A stretch of DNA of 64,000 bases from Apostichopus japonicus (taxonomy: Eukaryota > Echinodermata > Holothuroidea > Aspidochirotida > Stichopodidae): assembly GCF_037975245.1 (NCBI RefSeq), contig NC_092562.1, forward strand, positions 28,719,554 to 28,783,553. The letters are read 5' to 3'. The notes under the pieces were generated by a model. The model searched no databases. It had not been told where the DNA came from and saw only the letters and a list, made by a program, of their open reading frames with translations. The translations under genes were made by a program, and so were the position numbers. This document shows positions 43,162 to 61,594 of the stretch, one piece after another. Position 1 is the stretch's first letter, and each line of letters begins with the position of its first letter.

Positions 43162-43356
43162 CTACTCTTTTGTCAATTTTTCAGTAAGTAAAGCATCAAA
43201 CCAAAGAGCTTTGGCGTTTCTGCGAACCATGAAGATAACTGCGACCAGGGTTCCATGAACTGCTCTGAGCAGTGAAAATACAATTCCGAGAAGCGATGAT
43301 GGCCAGATGTGGTTCATAAATCCGACCCCACAGGTAATGCAGAGGGCAATATATAG
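43162..43356 (-). CDS. Receptor exon 10 (helices 6-7, C-terminus)
   Basis: LYIALCITCGVGFMNHIWPS is helix 6 and SLLRAVHGTLVAVIFMV helix 7. It ends ALLTEKLTKE before TAG, so the cytoplasmic tail is only about 20 residues. The acceptor is TTTTGAAG|CTA, phase 0. Confidence 0.88.
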   Translation of the reverse strand, partial: LYIALCITCGVGFMNHIWPSSLLGIVFSLLRAVHGTLVAVIFMVRRNAKALWFDALLTEKLTKE

Positions 43357-61300: not shown

Positions 61301-61594
61301 CTATTTTTTGGTAAATTTAACTAGTTTTAGGCAAAAAACGCTAGAATTACCACAATTAGAAAAAAAACGTATGCTAGAACCCCAGAAAAGACTAAAAACG
61401 CTAGATCTAGTGTAAAAACGCTAACGCTGGCAACGCTGATGTGCAGGTTTGAGTTGGATGTGTGAATTGAAAGTGTCAGTGTATGACAGAGTAGAAATTG
61501 ACTTACCAGAATAAACTGTAGGATAGAGCAACAGAGAGATGACGTAAGCAATCAATATGCACTTTAATGGTCTTCTTCTAGACATTGTGAACAT
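43162..61594 (-). CDS. SRCR-SMB seven-helix receptor (class B-like), whole gene
   Basis: Ten coding exons join in one frame (4833 nt, 1610 residues plus stop). Layout by residue: signal peptide 1-29; SRCR1 30-134; SRCR2 135-246; somatomedin-B-like SMB1 about 255-300; Cys-rich module A to 596; SRCR3 597-703; SRCR4 704-814; SMB2 about 822-865; Cys-rich module B to about 1330; seven helices about 1336-1600; very short cytoplasmic tail. Modules A and B share PVYD(E/D)xG...N.YCAIC near their starts and a CP.G/YF...C segment further on, so the ectodomain is an internal duplication. Helices such as ISVGVTFLALLTFF, WNVFWLWICIPFY and LYIALCITCGVGFMNHIW resemble the secretin/adhesion (class B) fold. 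The usual GPS cleavage motif before helix 1 is not evident. It is most likely a plasma-membrane receptor for a protein or microbial ligand (inference). No named family is recognised. Confidence 0.9.
43690..43885. repeat. TA/TG microsatellite with TAGGCCTA units
   Basis: (TA)n, (TG)n and repeated ATATATAGGCCTATATAT segments in receptor intron 9, close to the exon 9 donor. Confidence 0.85.
43981..46175 (-). CDS. Receptor exon 9 (SMB2, module B, helices 1-5)
   Basis: A single 2195-nt exon. It opens with CGSDHTCRNRCGGWYGTCNC and FGDCCDDYKDLC, an SMB domain with its typical cysteine spacing. The Cys-rich module B follows (LPVYDDHGVIYRNRYCAIC...), then several N-glycosylation sites (NLTC, NYT, NDS). 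Five hydrophobic helices end at FRALLKHKPLQ; LLSEIRDNFV is the last coding part before GTA|GTGAGT. Phases are 1 in and 0 out. Confidence 0.92.
46283..46690. mobile_element. hAT-like MITE family 2, copy 2
   Basis: Same family and orientation as 30379-30777. The flanks show a perfect 8-bp duplication TATCGACC (46275-46282, 46691-46698). It sits in receptor intron 8, about 100 bp upstream of the exon 9 acceptor. Confidence 0.92.
47236..47379. repeat. Uninterrupted (GAT)n microsatellite
   Basis: About 47 GAT triplets in receptor intron 8. The polymethionine and polyserine frames across it are artefacts. A perfect tract this long is likely to vary in length between individuals. Confidence 0.97.
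47485..47817 (-). CDS. Receptor exon 8 (SRCR4)
   Basis: SYSIRLYGGILASEGFVQIR, DTLHWDYRDGTVVCWELNL and LAWVTC show a whole SRCR domain (RLYGG start, VVC-L core, terminal W-x-x-C). Phase 1 at both ends, the classic shufflable module. Confidence 0.88.
48040..48150 (-). mobile_element. tRNA(Leu/Ser)-like SINE head
   Basis: On the minus strand GTGGCCGAGTGGATAAAGG (A-box) and GGTTCGATACC (B-box) are spaced as in a tRNA with a long variable arm. The 5' (GTGCCTG) and 3' (CCGGGTC) ends cannot pair, so it is not a working tRNA. It is probably a SINE head in receptor intron 7. Confidence 0.55.
48884..49068 (-). CDS. Receptor exon 7 (SRCR3, second half)
   Basis: ELGLDFEPIIHVIKGKDDRE, LECHGNETSMNDCHLSF then VYVRC, the C-terminal half of an SRCR domain with its GNE-x(4)-DC signature. 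Phases are 2 in and 1 out. Confidence 0.85.
49417..49552 (-). CDS. Receptor exon 6 (SRCR3, first half)
   Basis: KTRLAGNESNRGFVQVQHTN then GKWYTAVDTLFNDTESMVLC. 136 nt long with phases 1 in, 2 out, exactly like exon 2, supporting common origin. Confidence 0.85.
49590..49670 (-). mobile_element. Possible hAT terminus (CAGCGGTTCTCAAACT)
   Basis: Read on the minus strand, this short intron contains CAGCGGTTCTCAAACTGGG, a well-known type of hAT (Charlie-like) end, followed by a G-run. Only one end is visible, so it is a fragment at most. Confidence 0.35.
49735..50784 (-). CDS. Receptor exon 5 (SMB1 and Cys-rich module A)
   Basis: CGSDHTCVNQCGKWKRNEGC, CDEACVQFHDCCFDYDDVC is an SMB domain. Module A follows: CPPGFNQPGTVQYCEHD, PVYDENGLVFSNVYCAICHG and YDPFVKNCRVLQCPRYFLHY. 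Its order matches module B in exon 9. Phase 1 at both ends. Confidence 0.9.
50910..51245 (-). CDS. Receptor exon 4 (SRCR2)
   Basis: DVELRLFGGIVSSEGILQIR, ARDCHVVCLQLGHKICSRWG, GFNELQLLDCDMSW and LAWMSC form a whole SRCR domain. Phase 1 at both ends. Confidence 0.9.
52370..52548 (-). CDS. Receptor exon 3 (SRCR1, second half)
   Basis: QLGFDHVCRMKVTDEGRDN, QYVQCMGTEPALSFCVW and YALLQC, the second half of an SRCR domain. Phases are 2 in and 1 out. Confidence 0.82.
52828..53211. mobile_element. hAT-like MITE family 4
   Basis: Ends CATAGGCATAGGAG and, inverted, CATAGGAATAGGCG, a common hAT terminus. The flanking octamers CATTTAAC and CATTTCAC match at seven of eight bases. It lies in receptor intron 2 and has G/C-runs near both ends. 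Confidence 0.7.
53212..56405. other. Receptor intron 2, mostly unfeatured
   Basis: No exon is supported. At about 55033-55372 there is a partial hAT-like copy with a variant of the shared palindromic block (CGCGCCAACCCATGCATGGT) but no clear ends. C-runs occur near 54641 and 55483. Confidence 0.45.
56406..56541 (-). CDS. Receptor exon 2 (SRCR1, first half)
   Basis: SDYSVRISYHGDYAKLGYLE, DNTWYSVHPDTLDRPAATTAC. Length 136 nt and phases (1 in, 2 out) match exon 6. It joins exon 1 after the signal peptide and gives CRQLGF across the junction with exon 3, the SRCR core. Confidence 0.82.
57154..57481. mobile_element. hAT-like MITE family 5
   Basis: Ends CAGGCGCGTAGCCAAGG and, inverted, CAGGCGCGTAGCGAGG, with a perfect 8-bp duplication CCGCCATA (57146-57153, 57482-57489). 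It holds two partial copies of the shared palindromic block. It lies in receptor intron 1. Confidence 0.88.
57706..57957. repeat. CpG-rich 12-bp minisatellite
   Basis: About 21 units of the pattern AACGCRRCGYNN. Units cycle as AACGCGGCG, AACGCAGCG and AACGCAACG, giving a loose 36-bp higher-order period. Two CpGs per unit make it a dense CpG patch in an AT-rich intron. The frames across it are artefacts. Confidence 0.9.
58936..60575 (+). mobile_element. L2/CR1-like LINE remnant (reverse transcriptase)
   Basis: The frame starting about 59031 encodes LDLSAAFDLIDHEILFNRL, SGVPQGSVLGPLIYCMFT and HHCYADDTQLYLY, the reverse transcriptase core of non-LTR elements. It is broken by a stop near 59498; RT thumb and C-terminal sequence continues at 59699-60082 (CNALLYGLPHKLTDRIQRVQ, LHWLPI). 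The 3' end has a GCGCCTTA...TAAGGCGC hairpin (about 60499-60535) then A-rich DNA, as in L2/CR1-type elements. The 5' part with endonuclease is missing. It sits antisense in receptor intron 1. Confidence 0.88.
60993..61438. mobile_element. hAT-like MITE family 6
   Basis: Ends CAGCGTTACCAGCG and, inverted, CAGCGTTGCCAGCG, with a perfect 8-bp duplication ATGTGCAG (60985-60992, 61439-61446). Many AAAAACGCTAGA motifs occur near both ends. It is inserted about 70 bp from the receptor's first coding exon. Confidence 0.88.
61507..61594 (-). CDS. Receptor exon 1 (signal peptide)
   Basis: MFTMSRRRPLKCILIAYVIS then LLLYPTVYS: a basic start, a hydrophobic core and small residues, a good signal peptide. 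A second in-frame ATG lies three codons in. The frame further up opens only at TTG. The donor is TTCTG|GTAAGT, phase 1, which fits exon 2. Confidence 0.8.

Follow-up and report, generated by a model that had tools for sequence, protein, structure and literature searches.

Homologs of the Methuselah and Methuselah-like (Mth/Mthl) receptors that carry a somatomedin B (SMB) domain are described from N. vectensis (XP_001628572), B. floridae (XP_002608881) and S. kowalevskii (XP_006821924) in the text of PMC4768249. The same text reports an expansion of the family in the sea urchin and its absence from vertebrates and Platyhelminthes, and treats the Methuselah_N domain as derived within arthropods. 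For the sea squirt, Mth/Mthl receptors are corroborated in one place of that paper, while none are found in tunicates in another. A Methuselah-like receptor without the Mth ectodomain is reported from Ciona (PMC2396169).

The adhesion receptors of amphioxus carry SMB, Kringle and SRCR domains, with an expansion of SMB and Kringle (PMC2246102). As the text of that paper denies amphioxus any Methuselah receptors, it classifies the animal differently from PMC4768249. The planarian PARF1 and cnidarian NvX receptors also bear SMB, and NvX has some homology to the Methuselah receptors (PMC3261222). Two sponge adhesion GPCRs, Aq712029 and Aq715659, have SRCR repeats (PMC4302439). The symbols in a figure of Halichondria receptors include SRCR, somatomedin-B-like and 7TM (PMC8242945), so a similar combination in that sponge is conceivable. 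Further background is given in PMC6321704, PMC6208332 and PMC12716839.

The gene described here lies in a 64-kb stretch of Apostichopus japonicus DNA (the window, meaning the whole stretch analysed). It probably encodes a class-B-type GPCR of the somatomedin-B/Methuselah-like kind, with an ectodomain that acquired tandem SRCR domains and afterwards was itself doubled as a block. The predicted product consists, in order, of a signal peptide, two SRCR-SRCR-SMB-Cys modules, about 225 residues without a known domain, and seven helices. Pfam and hydropathy bear out the twofold SRCR-SRCR-SMB-Cys order followed by seven helices that an earlier note had claimed. The ten exons are:

Exon 1, 61507..61594, minus strand: start codon and signal peptide (hydrophobic peak at residues 12-30), phase-1 donor
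Exon 2, 56406..56541, minus strand: first half of SRCR 1a; 136 nt; alone below the Pfam cut-off
Exon 3, 52370..52548, minus strand: second half of SRCR 1a; alone below the Pfam cut-off
Exon 4, 50910..51245, minus strand: SRCR 2a, the sole SRCR that has both the C2 and the C7 cysteine
Exon 5, 49735..50784, minus strand: SMB a and Cys-rich module a
Exon 6, 49417..49552, minus strand: first half of SRCR 1b; 136 nt
Exon 7, 48884..49068, minus strand: second half of SRCR 1b; alone below the Pfam cut-off
Exon 8, 47485..47817, minus strand: SRCR 2b; passes the SRCR cut-off alone
Exon 9, 43981..46175, minus strand: SMB b and Cys-rich module b, then a pre-membrane stretch of about 225 residues with no Pfam match, and TM1-TM5
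Exon 10, 43162..43356, minus strand: TM6, TM7, short tail and stop codon; no Pfam match alone

Like the SMB-type Mth/Mthl receptors, the predicted receptor has an ectodomain SMB and secretin-type seven helices and lacks Methuselah_N; it differs in its SRCR domains and doubled module, which go unmentioned in the text of PMC4768249, the comparison being one of descriptions only. With the amphioxus adhesion GPCRs it shares the occurrence of SMB and SRCR on class-B-like seven-helix receptors. However, the GPS present in many of those was not found here, and the text of PMC2246102 is without the doubled SRCR-SRCR-SMB-Cys order. The sponge adhesion GPCRs are alike in having several SRCRs on one seven-helix receptor and differ in that the word "somatomedin" is absent from the main text of PMC4302439. 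PARF1 and NvX are likewise adhesion-like seven-helix receptors with SMB, of which a single PARF1 member is predicted to have two; they differ, by description only, in that SRCR is unmentioned in the text of PMC3261222. The doubled order on a seven-helix receptor was not found in the titles, abstract openings and text passages covered by a search of open-licence papers. The view that no named family is near was overstated, given the SMB of Mth/Mthl, PARF1, NvX and amphioxus receptors and the SRCR of amphioxus and sponge receptors. The combination of parts thus appears to be already known in kind, and the doubled head would be the unusual feature.

Helices and pre-membrane stretch

Helices 1, 3, 4, 5, 6 and 7 rise above the hydropathy threshold; helix 2 is below it and was placed by eye. 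The Pfam profile 7tm_2 (PF00002; cut-off 20.6 bits) matches the TM1-4 piece with 26.4 bits (profile positions 5-138) and the TM3-7 piece with 24.0 bits (74-249), both following the profile order. The TM2-5 piece scores 14.6 bits, below the cut-off, and there is no match on the undivided 286-residue helix domain or on TM1-5. The missing whole-domain match is suspected to be due to the HMMER composition filter. Locally shuffled controls of the helix domain gave no 7tm_2 match (0 of 10 and 0 of 7, 0 of 17 together). Their weak matches to other families stayed below cut-off (best E 0.025), and an unrelated transporter model matched TM1-4 below its own cut-off (E 0.004). A phmmer search of the PDB with the helix domain returned nothing at E up to 10.

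The TM3-5 piece scores 23.5 bits without exon 10, and 24.0 and 23.6 bits are reached with it. Exon 10 lengthens the match despite this gain of at most 0.5 bit; as it adds so little and matches nothing alone, the junction of exons 9 and 10 is supported chiefly by the reading frame, the splice sites and the hydrophobicity.

The motif WGLP is found at the TM4 position, and a cysteine at TM3 and another in the second extracellular loop can be read from the translation. All of these are hallmarks of class B. The class-B-type (secretin-like) character of the predicted helices, claimed earlier, is weakly shown: TM1-4 and TM3-7 pass the cut-off, and the whole domain and TM1-5 give no match. This mixed outcome slightly lowers confidence in the SMB/Methuselah-like class-B reading.

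In the 252 residues before TM1, Pfam matched neither GPS nor GAIN, the domains looked for in an adhesion GPCR, even at E up to 1. At the same threshold HRM, looked for in a secretin receptor, was missing from either half and from the pre-membrane stretch, and Methuselah_N (PF06652), looked for in an arthropod Methuselah receptor, from the scanned product. The ectodomain SMB of the SMB-type Mth/Mthl receptors is present, with 30.4 and 27.8 bits in the two halves against a cut-off of 23.1 bits. The predicted receptor is best read as a divergent relative of the SMB-bearing Methuselah-like receptors known from amphioxus, the acorn worm and Nematostella, a subfamily placement that we infer.

In the absence of a GPS or GAIN match, autoproteolysis and activation by a tethered agonist are unlikely. 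The protein might nevertheless be an adhesion GPCR like those of amphioxus, with a tethered agonist and a GAIN/GPS region too diverged for Pfam; the text of PMC2246102 describes both SMB members and SRCR members in that adhesion family, and the stretch of about 225 residues, roughly residues 1105-1330, sits at the GAIN position. We consider this unlikely, since even at E up to 1 no GPS or GAIN was matched there, and the only H-[LIV]-[ST] tripeptides, at residues 681 and 1023, are at least 300 residues before TM1.

The duplicated ectodomain

A domain search, proposed earlier as a check, found SRCR (PF00530; cut-off 26.1 bits) and SMB above the Pfam cut-offs in both halves of the product. Residues 1-596 contain two SRCR stretches, with a family score of 58.3 bits, and one SMB; the remaining 1014 residues contain two SRCR stretches, with 73.6 bits, and one SMB. 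When exons were scanned singly, exons 4 and 8 exceeded the SRCR cut-off, and exons 2, 3 and 7, which encode parts of split domains, fell below it. NCBIfam gave no match for the two protein sequences scanned. Among PDB sequences, SRCR 2a resembles those of PIT54, Mac-2 binding protein, CD6 and neurotrypsin (E up to 0.01).

In the four-row SRCR alignment, the C2 and C7 cysteines are present in 2a and jointly missing from 1a, 1b and 2b. These two belong to the conserved cysteine set of the SRCR superfamily and pair in a disulfide. Their joint absence from three of the four domains would agree better with a single lost disulfide than with decay.

Each exon of one half of the ectodomain has its homologue in the other half. 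Identical positions number 36 of 110 between exons 4 and 8 (z 20.5), 88 of 285 between exon 5 and the start of exon 9 (z 34.0), and 20 of 82 between exons 2+3 and 6+7 (z 11.8). SRCR pairs out of position score lower: 11.4 for exons 2+3 with exon 8 (17 of 46 identical), 6.3 for exons 6+7 with exon 8, 4.2 for exon 4 with exons 6+7, and -0.1 for exons 2+3 with exon 4. The positional pairing is thus the best for each SRCR, for exons 2+3 only narrowly (z 11.8 against 11.4). The introns after exons 1-9 have phases 1,2,1,1,1,2,1,1,0. Phase-1 introns thus flank the copied block on the left and, in the first copy only, on the right. The second copy continues inside exon 9, and neither the pre-membrane stretch nor the helices are represented in the first half. 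Together with the paired z scores, the recurrence of phases 2,1,1 after exons 2-4 and again after exons 6-8, and the equal length of exons 2 and 6 (136 nt each), agree with the earlier proposal that a whole block was duplicated.

A finer internal repeat within the Cys-rich module is only suggestive. The score of the subrepeat pair a1 and b2 was reached by 0 of 500 shuffles, that of b1 and b2 by 5, a1 and a2 by 13, a2 and b1 by 27, and a2 and b2 by 135 of 500; for b3 against the other subrepeats, 194, 217, 321 and 440 of 500 did so. The Cys-rich parts gave weak PDB matches in the SMB stretch (sushi domain containing 2, an endoribonuclease and vitronectin; best E 0.00034) and one match outside it (E 0.8). 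The AlphaFold models were poor, with mean pLDDT of 50.0 and 27.7; being unusable, they support no claim about the fold.

At E up to 1, a tblastn search of the window for further copies returned only the receptor gene and its own two halves. No relatives of the 286-residue seven-helix domain were confirmed in a collection of genome contigs, nor any of the exon 9 protein in a collection of viral contigs, both being poor places to look for an animal gene.

Gene model and neighbourhood

When spliced in silico, the ten minus-strand exons (61594..43162) join into a single open frame of 4833 nt coding for 1610 residues. Every intron border is GT-AG, and the span, joining and product of the earlier note were reproduced. 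Measured from stop to stop, the two longest frames in this region run to 750 and 355 codons. As the maximum in 200 dinucleotide shuffles was 245 codons, these frames are beyond chance. Upstream of exon 2, 7.5 kb were searched for a strong phase-1 donor together with a hydrophobic stretch. Of the four candidate first exons obtained, two are other ATGs of exon 1 and the remaining two overlap with exon 2. The predicted gene appears real, with the architecture as it was first described.

The gene might have two products: the membrane receptor, and a soluble SRCR-SRCR-SMB-Cys protein terminated by read-through past exon 5. The first module is complete and has its own signal peptide, and read-through of the exon 5 donor leads to SSGK and a stop (open frame 49727..50794, minus strand); however, a stop soon after a donor would often be expected by chance, and such a soluble form seems improbable. 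A fusion of exons from two genes, or an assembly artefact, is hardly credible in spite of the long introns 1 and 2 (4965 and 3857 nt) and a reverse-transcriptase fragment within the former, as the frame is open across all nine junctions, there is one credible first exon, and the intron separating the modules, after exon 5, is just 182 nt long.

The reverse-transcriptase fragment (RVT_1) occupies 58929-59498 on the plus strand; the open frame 59600-60082 after it has no Pfam match. A run of 49 (TGA) copies is found at 47233-47379 in intron 8. The next gene downstream, at 6439-26089 on the minus strand, contains, in order, exons for QLQ, HSA, SNF2, Helicase_C and a bromodomain, and we take it to be SMARCA4/SMARCA2 (BRG1/brahma). 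Three other frames in it or just upstream gave no Pfam match. Four long minisatellites lie in or beside its introns: 5239-6476 (28-nt unit, about 45 copies), 13018-14496 (48-nt, about 31), 18739-19524 (101-nt, about 8) and 22050-22821 (55-nt, about 14). Two of the four contain open frames of 380 and 536 codons. The window contains no Rfam family at gathering score and no tRNA.

Possible ligands and signalling

The preferred reading of the gene as an SMB/Methuselah-like class-B receptor suggests the following course. An ancestral SMB-bearing ectodomain would have gained tandem SRCR domains, and the phase-1-bounded block of exons 2-5 would then have been duplicated to give exons 6-8 and the start of exon 9. 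The doubled SRCR/SMB/Cys-rich head may bind a protein or glycoconjugate outside the cell, and the pre-membrane stretch would relay the ligand-induced change to the seven helices, which would activate a G protein without self-cleavage. That the predicted receptor is expressed, binds a ligand and signals is something we infer.

It is conceivable, if doubtful, that the protein is a scavenger or pattern-recognition receptor fused to GPCR helices, its doubled SRCR-SMB head sensing microbial or matrix ligands with no separate adaptor. SMB domains and Mth-like relatives are equally compatible with endogenous protein ligands. A scallop SRCR protein binds LPS, peptidoglycan and other ligands according to the text of PMC7308585, and by analogy microbial ligands are possible for this receptor.

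If the receptor belongs to the Mth/Mthl family, which is described as absent from vertebrates (PMC4768249), it would be an example of how a large ligand-binding head can arise by the addition of SRCR domains and the copying of a phase-1 block. Should the head recognise microbial or matrix ligands, the receptor would link scavenger-type recognition directly to G protein signalling, in a form that could be tested in one protein.
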